Below are positions 3,691 to 33,695 of a DNA stretch of 33,695 nucleotides, piece after piece; position 1 is the stretch's first letter, and the number at the start of each line of letters is the position of its first letter. The DNA comes from a virus, in the IMG/VR virus record IMGVR_UViG_3300045921_000156, positions 1 to 33,695 of that record; one strand, 5' to 3'. Both the position numbers and the translations under genes were made by a program. The notes beneath the pieces were generated by a model, which did no database searches, was not told the DNA's origin, and was given only the letters and a program-made list of their open reading frames with translations.

Positions 3691-5443
3691 ATTTGAATGT
3701 TACTTCTAACCTAAATAATGGCATTTGAATATTTACTTTTTCTTCTACTTCTGTGTCAAGTATTACAATAGGTACAGGGCTATTTTCTTCGTCAAACAAA
3801 TAAACTTCTTTTGATGTAAATAACTCTTTCAACCATACACTTTCTGCTTCTGACAACCAATCAGACCTTAACACAATTTCATCTTCTGAATATGAATTAA
3901 AAACAGTAGTGCCTCGCTCTTGCTTTGTATAACTCCACTCTCCATTATTTACACTGCCATGTCTTTTTGTAAATGTTTTTAATTCGCTCTTTTGCTTCTT
4001 GTTATATCCTTGTTTGAAATTGAAATAATCAAACTCCCCTAAAGCGTTTAAAAATGCTATGCGATGCGTTTTATACCTGCTTTCGCAATCAACGTTAAAT
4101 CGTATCGTTTCGCTTCTTATTGCCGTATTAGTGTTGTCGTATAATCTTACTGTATAATAGCTTACATTGCTCCAATTTATCGCTGGTAATGAATTAGCTA
4201 TTCTATACTCATCAATATTCTTTGTTCCAACACCGATTACTTTAGATTGCTTCAACCTGTTGATGCTATCTGCATCTGGGTTGTTTACATTCATCGAAGT
4301 GATTAGCGTATTACTGTTGTCGTAAAACTTAAACTCGACAACCTCAACTCTACTTGTATTAATACTTGTCCCTTGTAAAAATGCAAGTGTGTGGAATTGA
4401 CTTGTAAGTATCTTTAATGTTTTAGGGCAATTTGTTAAAAACCTACTCGCATCACCTGTTGGCGTGAATGTTGTAAAATCAAAGTTAGGGTATTTATCCT
4501 TCTTTAATTTTCCATTTACAACATAAGTACGCTGCGAGCCTGTGTTAGTAAAAGCAAGGTCGGGCAGATAATAGTTGTTTCTTGAGAACATAACTCCAGC
4601 GTTTGCTGGTGAATTACCTGCCCAACGAATATTGGTAATAACTCGTGTGTAATTATTTCCATCTATTGTAACATTATTTACTTGCAACACGGTTGCCGTT
4701 CTATTATAGCTTGCATGTGTAAAACCTGCATCTTGTCTTATGGTAACTAAATCACCAACTCTAAAACGTGTAGGTCTTAATGTGTTGCCACTCCCGTAAT
4801 TTGGGAATACAAAACCAACGTAATCTACCCCATTTAAAGGGGAATAATAGTTATCAGTAAACTTTTCTGCTTCAAAGGCAACACCTGTCATGCCCGTTAA
4901 TGCAGTCGTCCACGCAATATTTGTTGTTACTGCTGTTGGGCTGTTTATCGTTGTTACAACAACATTTGTATTTTGATTAAATTGATTTGGGTCATCAGCA
5001 ACAATCACAACGGCATCGCCTTCTCGCAAATTATGTGTTGTGTCAAAAATAAGTCTTAGAAAGCCTCCGTTGTTATTTACGCTCGTTATCTTTATCTCCC
5101 TGCTAAATTCCTCTCCTATTCCAACATTATAATTCTTTACGCTATTATTCCTGTCTGCCATTACTATGGTGTCCCATTTAAAATCATAGCTTAGTCGCTG
5201 CGATAATATTGAGGAAGCATCAAAATGTCCTTGCGTAACATTTTGTAACTTATACACTTTGTTTTCGCTTACTAACTCACTACTTGTTGGTAATACGTTT
5301 ACATTGTCAATGTAGGTTCTAAAGATGAATTTAAAGTTTTTCCTGTTGATAAAATTCGATGTTACAACAAAGGGTATAGGGTTATGCACAAATGTGTACT
5401 TCCTTACTTGACTTCCTACTTTATCCTGTAATATCGTTATCAT
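3668..5443 (-). CDS. Distal tail-like structural protein, 591 aa
   Basis: A large beta-rich protein in the tail gene run, placed between the gp10-like neck protein (one base apart) and the 925-residue tip protein (23-base overlap). The C-terminal half contains RIAFLNALGEFDYFNFKQGY followed by Lys-rich ELKTFTKRHGS and a segment DWLSEAESVWLKELFTSKEV. This arrangement recalls conserved phage tail proteins of Bacteroidota, which I take to be distal tail or baseplate components. No catalytic motif is visible. Tail role is likely; the precise position in the tail is inferred. Confidence 0.65.
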   Translation of the reverse strand: MITILQDKVGSQVRKYTFVHNPIPFVVTSNFINRKNFKFIFRTYIDNVNVLPTSSELVSENKVYKLQNVTQGHFDASSILSQRLSYDFKWDTIVMADRNNSVKNYNVGIGEEFSREIKITSVNNNGGFLRLIFDTTHNLREGDAVVIVADDPNQFNQNTNVVVTTINSPTAVTTNIAWTTALTGMTGVAFEAEKFTDNYYSPLNGVDYVGFVFPNYGSGNTLRPTRFRVGDLVTIRQDAGFTHASYNRTATVLQVNNVTIDGNNYTRVITNIRWAGNSPANAGVMFSRNNYYLPDLAFTNTGSQRTYVVNGKLKKDKYPNFDFTTFTPTGDASRFLTNCPKTLKILTSQFHTLAFLQGTSINTSRVEVVEFKFYDNSNTLITSMNVNNPDADSINRLKQSKVIGVGTKNIDEYRIANSLPAINWSNVSYYTVRLYDNTNTAIRSETIRFNVDCESRYKTHRIAFLNALGEFDYFNFKQGYNKKQKSELKTFTKRHGSVNNGEWSYTKQERGTTVFNSYSEDEIVLRSDWLSEAESVWLKELFTSKEVYLFDEENSPVPIVILDTEVEEKVNIQMPLFRLEVTFKFANSEKY

Positions 5444-13534: not shown

Positions 13535-14461
13535 TTAAAGTTGAGGTTCAGGCTCAATGTTTAATTTATTACATGCAAAAACATATTCTTGGTATGAATA
13601 AAAATCTTGCTGCCTTATTTTTTTCCCTTCATGCACTTGTTTTGTTTCTTTGTTTTCATCTTTAAACCAAACCGCTATTGCTTTTTGTTTCCAATTTATA
13701 ATTTCCTTGCCTCTACTATCTTTCCAACCTGCTATTGAATAATACTCGTAAAATTTTTCGCCAGCACTTGCCTTATACCCTTTTTCTTTAAAGTAACTAA
13801 CAACTTCCTCAAGTGTCGGTACTTTTTTTTCTTTTTTTTGTATATTATTTATATTATTAATAATATTATAATTATTATCTAAGATATTACCTGTATTACT
13901 ATTTTTTCTTTTTTTTGCTTCTTTTTTTTCTTTTTTATTGGCATGAGAAAAAATATTTAATTGCTCGCTGTCGGCAATTTCGCTGCAACTATCTGATTTT
14001 AAACTTTTTAAGTGTCTGAAACTATTGTTTTCATTTTGTACTGTCGGAAAAACTGTCGGAAAAACTGTCGGAATAACTGTCTGACTTTTTTCTTCGCTAC
14101 CTTTGCAAATATTTGAATTGCAAGTATTTATATCGTTTTTAACTGTCGGAATAACTGTCGGAATTTGTGTCTGAAAATCGTTTTTGTTTAAATAATTATT
14201 TTCTAAAAAATATACATACATTTTTTGTTTTTCAACTTTAATTTCTATTAAATTTTCTTCCTGTAATTTTTCTAAAAAGTATTTTACTTTATCTTTTTTC
14301 CAGCAAAATAATTTAGCTAATTCTCTTAAAGATAAATTAAGCTCTTTACCATTTGATATAAATAGTAATTCGATAAATGCTTCGTAATAACTTAATGCAC
14401 CTCTTTGTCGCAAAATAGGTATTTCCCTTAAATTCCTATGCAATTTTATCCAACCTTCCAT
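13535..14461 (-). CDS. Replication initiator (lambda O/DnaD-like), 308 aa
   Basis: The N-terminus (MEGWIKLHRNLREIPIL, then LSLRELAKLFCWKKDKVKYF and LEKLQEENLIEIKVEKQKMY) is a winged-helix typical of phage replisome organisers. A low-complexity linker follows (residues 95-215) with repeated Pro-Thr-Val units and a Lys/Asn-rich part. The C-terminal domain (SYFKEKGYKASAGEKFYEYY, GWKDSRGKEIINWKQKAIAVW) resembles DnaD-type helicase-loading modules. The DNA of the linker contains iteron-like repeats and a long AT tract, as in lambda O, so the gene probably carries its own origin. A promoter and a structured leader precede it. Initiator role is well supported; iteron binding is inferred. Confidence 0.8.
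   Translation of the reverse strand: MEGWIKLHRNLREIPILRQRGALSYYEAFIELLFISNGKELNLSLRELAKLFCWKKDKVKYFLEKLQEENLIEIKVEKQKMYVYFLENNYLNKNDFQTQIPTVIPTVKNDINTCNSNICKGSEEKSQTVIPTVFPTVFPTVQNENNSFRHLKSLKSDSCSEIADSEQLNIFSHANKKEKKEAKKRKNSNTGNILDNNYNIINNINNIQKKEKKVPTLEEVVSYFKEKGYKASAGEKFYEYYSIAGWKDSRGKEIINWKQKAIAVWFKDENKETKQVHEGKKIRQQDFYSYQEYVFACNKLNIEPEPQL
13821..13970. other. AT-rich unwinding tract of the candidate replication origin
   Basis: About 150 bases of nearly pure A/T with long T runs on the plus strand, encoding Lys/Asn/Ile-rich sequence in the initiator linker. It directly adjoins the iteron-like clusters and is flanked by TGTCGG cores on both sides. In lambda the origin has the same order: iterons then an AT-rich segment inside gene O. 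Function as an unwinding element is inferred. Confidence 0.6.
14011..14174. repeat. Iteron-like 12-bp repeats (ACTGTCGGAAWA) inside the initiator gene
   Basis: On the plus strand, units start at 14040, 14052 and 14064 (with a degenerate fourth at 14076) and again at 14142 and 14154 (degenerate third at 14166). A further degenerate copy lies at 14012-14018. Related cores occur at 13968-13974 (CTGTCGG) and 13813-13819 (GTGTCGG). All point the same way. The copies at 13968 and 14012 are read in a different codon phase from the Pro-Thr-Val-coding copies, which suggests that DNA sequence, not peptide, is conserved. Confidence 0.7.
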
Positions 14462-14475
14462 AATGGTAAAATTAA

Positions 14476-14585
14476 AAGCCTTTAACGTTCGAGGCTGGGA
14501 GCGTACGCAGGCAATCGTACACCTCTACTAATTAAAGGCTTGTATCTTTAATATTTTTTTTGCCTATTTTTAAAAAATTGCTCCC
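14476..14585 (-). ncRNA. Structured 5' leader RNA of the replication operon, pseudoknot-capable
   Basis: Starting from the promoter just upstream, the transcript begins near GGGAGC (14585-14580). A 10-bp stem pairs 14476-14485 with 14532-14541. Inside it, GAGG/CCTC (14491-14494 with 14522-14525) and a 5-bp hairpin GTACG/CGTAC (14503-14507 with 14516-14520) enclose an 8-nt loop. The loop (14509-14514) is complementary to 14560-14565 in the 5' part, and 14497-14502 is complementary to 14580-14585. These two six-base pairings are nested and would form a pseudoknot or an alternative fold. A GC-rich island in AT-rich DNA supports selection. It could be a riboswitch-like leader, a small RNA, or a DNA structure of the origin. 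Confidence 0.5.
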
Positions 14586-14589
14586 GTTG

Positions 14590-14621
14590 CAAATTTACAA
14601 AATTACTTCTTCTTCCGCAAA
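14590..14621 (-). promoter_or_regulatory. Bacteroidota-type promoter of the replication operon
   Basis: Minus strand: TTTG (14621-14618), 20-base spacer, TAAATTTG (14597-14590), an exact match to the TTTG/TAnnTTTG pattern. The -7 element lies just after the stop of the upstream gene, while the -33 element is inside it. Unlike the two early promoters it lacks the TGTAAA-N6-TTTACA inverted repeat, so it may be expressed constitutively. Confidence 0.75.
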
Positions 14622-15396: not shown

Positions 15397-15852
15397 CTAA
15401 AAAAGCTCTGTAGCAAGACCAGAATTTATAAGACCGAACACATCAAAATGGTTCTTAAAGAAAAAATCCATCATTTTATAATTGAATTGACCATGCCCAT
15501 CGCAAATAAAATATTGTCGGCTTGAATAACCTGAATGATAAATATAATCTCGTTTATCGCTATCTCCATTATGTTTACCATACCAAAAACCAAAACTATC
15601 ATTTTCTGACTTCCCACAAAGTTGATAATATAATTCTTTTGTAAGTTTTGAAAATGGTTTTAATATTGGTTTTATTTCGGCTAAGTTTTTAGCGTTGCCC
15701 CATCCAATGTTTACCATTTTTAAGCCTATATCAATTGATTTTAATTCATAAATATTAGGCTCTTTACTTTCGGAGTCACTTTCTATTAAAAATTTTAATC
15801 TGTAAGGTAAATAAGGTACTATATGTTTTACTTCTAATTCCATTGTTTTCAT
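15397..15852 (-). CDS. Conserved-type hypothetical protein, 151 aa
   Basis: Contains VKHIVPYLPYRLKFLIES, then KPILKPFSKLTKELYYQL, a pattern I associate with uncharacterised proteins common in Bacteroidota phages and mobile elements. The C-terminal half is aromatic-rich (GFWYGKHNGD, GYSSRQYFICDGHGQF). No catalytic motif is obvious. Two possible ATGs lie three codons apart; the first has the CTAAAACT-ATG context used by neighbouring genes. Confidence 0.6.
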   Translation of the reverse strand: MKTMELEVKHIVPYLPYRLKFLIESDSESKEPNIYELKSIDIGLKMVNIGWGNAKNLAEIKPILKPFSKLTKELYYQLCGKSENDSFGFWYGKHNGDSDKRDYIYHSGYSSRQYFICDGHGQFNYKMMDFFFKNHFDVFGLINSGLATELF

Positions 15853-15889
15853 AGTTTTAGAATTGTTAATAGTTGCGTCTATATTTGAG

Positions 15890-32046: not shown

Positions 32047-33695
32047 TTAGTAAATTGTGCCATTTCGTTCTATCTTAGCTATTCGCTTTTGACTATCCGT
32101 TATTTCTTTCTCACTTACATAAGCCTTTACTTCTATTGTCTGTTTTGTTTCCAGTGGTGAAACATCGTTTTTGTCTGCACTACCAACTCCTCTTGAGCCA
32201 ATAAAACTACTGTCTAATGTGAAGTTGTTTATTGCTTCTAACAACGGTGCGAAAAGGCTTGTGCTACGTGCATTTACAACGTATTCGCCGTTTGATAAAT
32301 ATGCGGGTATGCTATCACTTGTCCCAGTGCCCTTACCTCTAACATATCCGCCAGTTGCAAAACGTGGAGGTTCAGGCACATTTGATTGCGACAAAATACT
32401 CTTTGCCTGTGCTATACTTGACAATATCTGCACTATTCCCGTTGCGTATTGTAATGCTCCCGCAGCTCCGAATGTTACTGCATTCGCAGGGTTTGCAGAA
32501 GATGCTGCAGTTAACGCTGATATTGATTTTGCTAAATCAATACCTATTTGAGTTAATGTTACTATCTTTTGAAATTCAATCGCTTCTTTTGATTGTGCCC
32601 CTAACGCATTTGAAAGTGATTTTAAAGAATTTACAAAATCGCTCGCTGCAGCTAACTCCGCTTGTCTTATTAACTCTCTATTCGCTTGTTGCCTTGCTTC
32701 TATTTCTGTTAGCCCCTTCTGATATTCTTCATAATCAATTAAACCTGTTTGATAAAATAATCTTAAATTATTTTTTTGTGCTTCTAAAAAGTCTAACTGT
32801 CCCTTTTCTGACTGTTTATAAGCATAAACAAGTCTATCTACCTCTTCTTCTATTATGTTCTCCTCTTGAACGAGCGGTATTTCTTGAATTTTATTTGAAG
32901 CCTCTTCACGTAACTTTATTATTTCATTTATAGTTTGTCTTTCAAATTCTAATCTTGCTTCTTCGAGCTCTCTTTCTGCTCTAATTCTTTCGTTCCTCTT
33001 TTCATACGCCTCTTTTCTTTTTTTCTCAAGCTCTTCAATTGATTTTTTTTCTTGCTCTCTTCTTTCTTTTAATAGCACCGCATACTCACCAAGTACTTTA
33101 TTTAAATCACGCTGCAGCTCTAATTTTTTCTTCTCGTCTTTCTCAAGCAAAATATTTGTTTGAATTTCTACTGCTTGAAGTTTTAATATTTCACGCTTTA
33201 CCTTGAATATCTTGTCATAGCTCGCACCTTGAGCTTCTAATTTTTTTACATTTAATTCTAATTCGCTTGTTAAATCAGCTGTTGATTTTTTCACCTCGTT
33301 TGAAATGCCTGCAAATTTTTCAAAGGCACTAACTAATTTATCCCAATTAGCTACAACTGCTCCAATTAAAACTAAAAATGCACCAAAGCCTGTTGCTGCC
33401 AATGCAGCCTTAACACCTGTTAAACCTCTTATTGATGCGACAAGACTACTATTCCATAGCTTTTGAGCCGTTGTTGTAAGCAATATTCTTTCATAACTAT
33501 CTTTATTTAGTTTTGCATTTATTGCTTGCAAACCATTTAGAATAGCCATTATTCCTTGCGTCTTTTTAAGCACCTCATTCAACTCTTCGCTTTCGCTGCC
33601 GAATAACGCTACTGCTCCTTGTGCGACTGAAAAGCCCCCTGCAATACCTTCTACAATGCCTATTGCACCTTTTAATTTTCCAAAGTCATCGGCAA
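32047..33695 (-). CDS. Tail tape measure protein, central and C-terminal part
   Basis: Continuation of the gene that starts at 329; within the window the 5' end is cut, and 33569-33695 duplicates 1-127. The product sets tail length and leaves with the DNA during infection. Visible features: a hydrophobic segment (AATGFGAFLVLIGAVVANW) that could be membrane-active, a long Lys/Glu-rich coiled coil (KKLELQRDLNKVLGEY through RAERELEEARLEFERQ), an alanine-rich segment, and a C-terminal module with FATGGYVRGKGTGTSDSIPA and LSNGEYVVNA, a widespread tape-measure ending. At 616 residues it is short for a siphovirus tape measure; by the usual rule of about 1.5 angstrom per residue the tail would be roughly 90 nm. 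The head protease gene follows 20 bases downstream. Confidence 0.88.
   Translation of the reverse strand, partial: ADDFGKLKGAIGIVEGIAGGFSVAQGAVALFGSESEELNEVLKKTQGIMAILNGLQAINAKLNKDSYERILLTTTAQKLWNSSLVASIRGLTGVKAALAATGFGAFLVLIGAVVANWDKLVSAFEKFAGISNEVKKSTADLTSELELNVKKLEAQGASYDKIFKVKREILKLQAVEIQTNILLEKDEKKKLELQRDLNKVLGEYAVLLKERREQEKKSIEELEKKRKEAYEKRNERIRAERELEEARLEFERQTINEIIKLREEASNKIQEIPLVQEENIIEEEVDRLVYAYKQSEKGQLDFLEAQKNNLRLFYQTGLIDYEEYQKGLTEIEARQQANRELIRQAELAAASDFVNSLKSLSNALGAQSKEAIEFQKIVTLTQIGIDLAKSISALTAASSANPANAVTFGAAGALQYATGIVQILSSIAQAKSILSQSNVPEPPRFATGGYVRGKGTGTSDSIPAYLSNGEYVVNARSTSLFAPLLEAINNFTLDSSFIGSRGVGSADKNDVSPLETKQTIEVKAYVSEKEITDSQKRIAKIERNGTIY
33569..33695. repeat. Terminal direct repeat, copy 2 (circular closure)
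   Basis: Second copy of the 127-base overlap described at 1-127. It lies inside the tape-measure gene and adds no new coding content. Confidence 0.95.

Follow-up and report, generated by a model that had tools for sequence, protein, structure and literature searches.

A candidate pseudoknotted attenuator leader ahead of a phage replication initiator gene, and its architectural relatives in Bacteroidota

Introduction

Riboswitches and attenuators that control terminators reside in 5' leaders, in which a structured domain is mutually exclusive with an intrinsic terminator and a gene lies directly downstream. The RNAs described here share these properties but differ as a class: the genes behind them belong to no common pathway, the structured domain is a nested double pseudoknot, and the helix sequences are largely free. 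HDV-like ribozymes also possess a nested double pseudoknot topology. As in those ribozymes, the 5'-most strand (here A) pairs directly 3' of hairpin P3, nested within an outer helix. However, the element in our study has neither P4 nor a J4/2 with the catalytic C, since only 0-2 nt separate A' from the next 3' strand; its L3 pairs upstream with B and not downstream, and no Rfam ribozyme matches it. Type III toxin-antitoxin leaders (ToxI/ToxN) are arranged as promoter, pseudoknotted RNA, terminator and gene. The same order is found in the window, by which we mean the whole 33,695-nucleotide virus record IMGVR_UViG_3300045921_000156. In contrast to ToxI, its RNA is a single unit without tandem repeats, and the genes downstream of such elements are not ToxN-like (a DnaD-like initiator in the window).

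To our knowledge, few regulatory RNA classes specific to Bacteroidota are known. Candidate Bacteroidota motifs include Bacteroidales-1, Bacteroides-1, Flavo-1 and Bacteroid-trp (Weinberg et al. 2010, PMC2864571), which resemble the present RNAs in being intergenic; all four have Rfam accessions, and searches of the window, of three phage copies and of 18 genome loci with the element returned none of them. An RNA-seq study of Flavobacterium psychrophilum (PMC9723704) describes unnamed structured 5' elements that likewise lack Rfam hits; its named examples lie ahead of housekeeping genes, among them pheA, hisG and ftsY. Searching the literature by motif words and by conserved sequence, with few subscription papers covered, gave no description of a motif such as ours. 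Attenuator leaders are known as a kind; the present architecture and family appear to be undescribed.

Results

A phage leader RNA with two rival folds

The leader is read on the minus strand, with about 125 nt between the promoter and the initiator ATG (Table 1). The transcript is expected, from the promoter sequence, to start near 14587. The resulting 5'UTR (about 14587 to 14462) contains no AUG, and the ATG at 14461 starts 7 nt past the U-rich tail. A first-pass annotation had described a host-type promoter followed by a GC-rich island in AT-rich DNA, with an outer stem, an inner stem, a hairpin and two nested distal pairings. Each of these was recovered: all 10 outer base pairs form, as do 6 of 6 pairs in either distal helix, and the GC content is 0.42 at 14450-14549 versus 0.2-0.35 in the surroundings. 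That reading had missed the U-rich tail after the outer stem, as well as a rival hairpin (arm 1) that uses the stem's 5' arm. The outer stem is present, and its best reading is as the terminator-like member of a pair of competing states. Its arms are part of an extended 24-bp inverted repeat (79%).

Table 1. Features of the leader region and the gene behind it
Feature	Position	Strand	Evidence
Promoter, Bacteroidota sigma type, TTTG-N20-TAAATTTG: TTTG 14621-14618, 20-nt spacer, TAAATTTG 14597-14590	14590..14621	-	Sequence
A, GGGAGC, 5' strand of closing helix, extreme 5' end of RNA	14580..14585	-	6/6 pairing with 14497-14502
B, AGGCAA, pseudoknot strand	14560..14565	-	6/6 pairing with 14509-14514
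Arm 1 hairpin, GCCUUUA (14539-14533) / UAGAGGU (14527-14521)	14521..14539	-	Minimum-energy fold
P3 hairpin, 5 bp, GUACG (14520-14516)-AUUGCCUG-CGUAC (14507-14503); 8-nt loop with B' UUGCCU (14514-14509)	14503..14520	-	Sequence and fold
A', GCUCCC, directly 3' of P3	14497..14502	-	Pairs with 14580-14585
P1 outer stem, terminator-like, AAGCCUUUAA (14541-14532) / UUAAAGGCUU (14485-14476)	14476..14541	-	Perfect 10 bp
P2 inner stem, 4 bp, within P1, GAGG (14525-14522) / CCUC (14494-14491)		-	Sequence
U-rich tail of P1, weak, UUAAUUUU	14468..14475	-	Sequence
DnaD-like/O-like replication initiator, 308 aa	13535..14461	-	PHROG 186 (E 1.4e-9), PHROG 345 (E 8.6e-5)

In place of the outer stem, the minimum-energy fold has a three-way junction, with A/A' as its closing helix and arm 1 and P3 as its arms, and the P3 loop is able to pair with B. 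Since arm 1 and P1 have their 5' arm in common, they are mutually exclusive. The two folds have energies of -27.5 and -25.9 kcal/mol, so that forcing P1 costs 1.6 kcal/mol, with the B duplex (-6.8) left out. The small energy gap and the common 5' arm point to two rival folds, one of them with a terminator-like stem; a competition between arm 1 and P1 is what this folding model predicts. With UUAAUUUU behind it and the start codon just beyond, P1 looks like a terminator.

None of 8000 local dinucleotide shuffles reached the whole-layout score of the leader. Equally good layouts occurred about twice in approximately 8 Mb of shuffled strand, a rate that predicts about 0.02 such layouts for the two strands of the window together, in which the descriptor matches once; it was designed after the element had been seen. 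By folding energy alone the leader does not stand out (z -1.4), which is no surprise given that the calculation ignores pseudoknots. Loose descriptors amounted to noise (27 matches versus 24 in shuffles), and only the strict one was therefore used. The first-pass view of a pseudoknot-capable leader that could switch is supported.

The window itself carries a 127-base exact terminal direct repeat (1-127 and 33569-33695), so the record is circular; a sister contig of 86% identity (L109) runs across this terminal junction. Within the initiator gene, at 14041-14163, six copies of CTGTC(G/T)GA, five of them as AACTGTC(G/T)GA and most at 12-base spacing, form an iteron-like array of the kind seen in lambda-O-type origins.

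The layout recurs in other phages

Applied to related phage records, the strict descriptor scored 80.6 (L010), 80.0 (L148) and 77.0 (L131), compared with 66.4 for the best shuffle in about 8 Mb. A fourth copy (L103) scored 61.4, below that large-scale best; each of the four outscored every one of its 8000 local shuffles. Descriptor matches in L007, L029, L039, L145 (second site) and L159 were left out of this comparison, and a candidate variant in L211, beside a start codon and inside other sequence, was dropped as a chance match. The four copies have unrelated sequences and one architecture: A, B, an arm and P3 in turn, the P3 loop containing B', the segment immediately 3' of P3 serving as A', and a terminator after that. 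A' adjoins P3 in the window copy as it does in L010, L148 and L131. The L010 element heads an operon containing the same MEGWIKLHR initiator as the window, and the copy in L103/L130 is solitary, with its own promoter and terminator and a distance of over 370 nt to the next ORF. An unannotated homologue of the L148 element, 77% identical, is present in Bacteroides phage BS-TP1; in an alignment of the two, compensatory double changes are seen in P0, C, A and P2, and P1 differs by wobble exchanges.

Simpler leaders behind a promoter precede the replication operons of the Flavobacterium elemo phages (L110, L317 and L318). There, a 5' hairpin pairs through its loop with the terminator loop, over 7-8 bp. 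Three versions of this loop helix exist (TGAGAGC/GCTCTCA, GTGGAGG/CCTCCAC and GTGAGATG/CATCTCAC); across them covariation is seen in the 5' hairpin and in the terminator stem as well as in the loop helix. The same simpler layout is found in L003 ahead of an HNH gene and an initiator. Together with the elemo phages it indicates that leaders pairing a 5' segment with a terminator loop recur in the replication operons of these phages. In L003, which is the nearest relative, the small HNH endonuclease gene (3717-3998) sits directly before the initiator, behind the structured leader. The 'hypothetical protein' phanotate21 annotated in elemoA phages (L318, 2056-2175) overlaps the leader RNA ahead of the replication operon and is probably spurious.

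A leader family in Bacteroidota genomes with covarying nested helices

A search pattern was built from the B sequences common to L148 and BS-TP1. It gave at least 118 matches in public genomes, mostly intergenic in Bacteroidota; those that fell inside ORFs in other phyla were discounted as chance matches. The resulting leader family of Bacteroidota genomes, with a GAAAUCGCCAA...GGUGUUUGGCGAUACC core, is referred to as type I (L173-L302), and 88 distinct copies were collected, almost all from Bacteroidota. Among 97 candidates, the A helix averaged 7.5 bp versus 2.7 bp with swapped partners. In an alignment of 68 sequences, each of the nine A pairs varies on both strands, pairing holds in 92.8% of cells versus 76.2% in shuffles, and the covariation score is 0.509 versus 0.180 in shuffles, a value reached by none of 500.

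As the pattern had fixed B, a covariance model was built without the B helix. It found matches in 9 of 119 Bacteroidia genomes. Across these matches and L131, B/B' takes the forms ACCGCGAA/TTCGCGGT, TCTGACAA/TTGTCAGA, ATCGCTAA/TTAGCGAT and TCGGCAG/CTGCCGA; 6 of the 8 pairs change on both sides, mostly among matches of the B-less model. The covariation of A/A' and the matched changes of B/B' establish the nested pseudoknot of type I. Sequence is conserved at the RAA linker and around P3, and the helix sequences are largely free.

A terminator-like stem with a T-rich tail accompanies 81 of the 88 copies. Of 84 copies, 76 have a next ORF in the same orientation (4 have it on the opposite strand and 4 have none), at a median of 89 nt after B' and within about 170 nt in 66 of the 76. 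TAnnTTTG lies upstream of 54 of 84 copies, compared with 16 of 84 on the opposite strand. Several copies can coexist in one genome, as in Paraprevotella clara with 5-6. The genes behind them, named from their sequences by eye, are very diverse, mostly accessory and without a pathway in common: BspA-like surface proteins, lipoproteins and small membrane proteins, in addition to HTH proteins, a restriction-modification gene and phage genes. The layout, which the first-pass annotation had noted before replication genes, is not peculiar to them, as the downstream genes are so diverse and one phage copy stands alone.

The window copy shares the architecture of type I and not its sequence

Helix A/A' is present in the window copy, with A' at 0 nt from P3 (0-2 nt in type I), as are B/B' with B' in the P3 loop, a terminator stem that takes its 5' arm from within arm 1 and has a T-rich tail behind it, a TAnnTTTG promoter (14597-14590), and a close same-strand gene, the initiator. 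The type I sequence signature, namely a 3-nt RAA between A and B, a B like AUCGCCAA and a GGY/RCC P3, is absent: the window has a 14-nt linker, AGGCAA as B and a longer P3 (GUACG). When the type I model was run on 501 bases of the window, the best match was precisely the leader element, at 11.9 bits, a score too low to hold in a whole-genome search. As the architecture fits and the sequence does not, the element is a divergent or convergent copy of the fold and not a type I member; judged from sequence, it fits the class by architecture only.

Phage records and the records of relatives yielded no direct homologue of the window copy. Of the viral pattern scans, one returned two chance matches and another none, and the short matches in 395 genomes of the phylum proved on inspection to be chance. 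The sister contig stops short of the leader region, and the leader sequence is not kept among protein relatives of the initiator and the primase. The covariation proposed as a check was found in architectural relatives, whose distal helices both show abundant compensatory changes. The first-pass statement that no named motif has this layout was borne out by Rfam 15: searches of the window, of three phage copies and of 18-20 genome loci produced no family match. A PyrG_leader match to the window was rejected (19.8 bits against a cut-off of 65), and weak matches to sau-19 and snoZ30a fell far below their cut-offs.

Discussion

We propose, with a probability of roughly 0.6, that the window RNA is a cis-acting pseudoknotted 5' leader of the replication operon that would control transcription by attenuation. 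In one state, A would pair with the segment directly 3' of P3, closing the three-way junction of arm 1 and P3, and B would pair into the P3 loop to give a nested double pseudoknot. Arm 1 would then occupy the 5' arm of the terminator, so that RNA polymerase would continue into the initiator gene. In the alternative state, free of A/A' and B/B', P1 would form and transcription would halt before the ATG. This scheme starts from the pairings and near-equal folds seen in the window and, in type I, from the covariation of both helices, the terminator and the same-strand gene. From these we infer that the window copy is transcribed, that the pseudoknot would be the read-through rather than the termination state, and that some signal (ligand, protein or RNA-folding speed) would set the balance between the folds.

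The element might instead be the gene of a free small non-coding RNA of about 115 nt that acts in trans, its place before the initiator being incidental. It does have its own promoter and a terminator-like end; the L103/L130 copy is found alone, and nothing unites the genes that follow related copies. Nevertheless, the prevalence of a nearby same-strand ORF behind type I copies and the 7 nt between the U tail and the window ATG argue against a stand-alone gene, and a plain small RNA needs no rival fold consuming a terminator arm; we consider this reading unlikely. Still less probable is a 5' stabiliser, a knotted end that would shield the mRNA from exonucleases or a structure that would affect initiator translation, with no attenuation involved. 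Such a role is consistent with the location of A at the extreme 5' end of the transcript, with a fold kept while helix sequence is free, and with the occurrence of the elements before genes of all kinds, but it gives no role to the terminator-like stem and T-rich tail of most type I copies, and type I keeps the sequence of its RAA linker and of the region around P3.

Against an operator or origin site, in which the initiator or a repressor would bind inverted repeats in DNA, the compensatory changes in crossing helices of the class are telling, as they would be meaningless for double-stranded DNA. The initiator gene moreover harbours a separate iteron-like array; although the position between promoter and initiator gene and the extended inverted repeat would suit such a site, we regard it as very improbable. 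Given the points raised against each, these three readings are less likely than attenuation. Fortuitous pairing within a GC-rich stretch of otherwise AT-rich phage DNA, in keeping with the ordinary minimum-energy z, the missing homologue and the descriptor's design once the element was known, is the least credible reading in view of the local shuffles, the placement between promoter and start codon and the same architecture proven elsewhere by covariation.

A broader proposal can also be made, to which we give slightly less than even odds: a phylum-wide Bacteroidota class of pseudoknot-controlled attenuators that would have spread with accessory genes and would gate phage replication operons, the window copy being a divergent member. 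The occurrence of several copies per genome before unrelated accessory and phage genes points to a common signal gating horizontally acquired DNA, and the attenuators are possibly riboswitches for one such signal. Should the phage copies respond to host state, phage replication would be linked to it.

The leader is short and thus suited to in vitro transcription and probing. A convenient laboratory model is the cultured phage BS-TP1, whose type I element lies at about 93,470-93,640 of PQ571274.1 (L171, 2990-3160). Further structures were noted in related phages. On the plus strand of L145, at 15725-15863, the phage of L010 has another inverted structure, whose 25-bp stem has AGCCCGTTTCAAGGGTAATTAATTG on one strand. 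In several others (records G043-G059, e.g. G043:C1:43344), TATATTTGTTCCATAAGGAGG follows a promoter-like site and is possibly another conserved leader.
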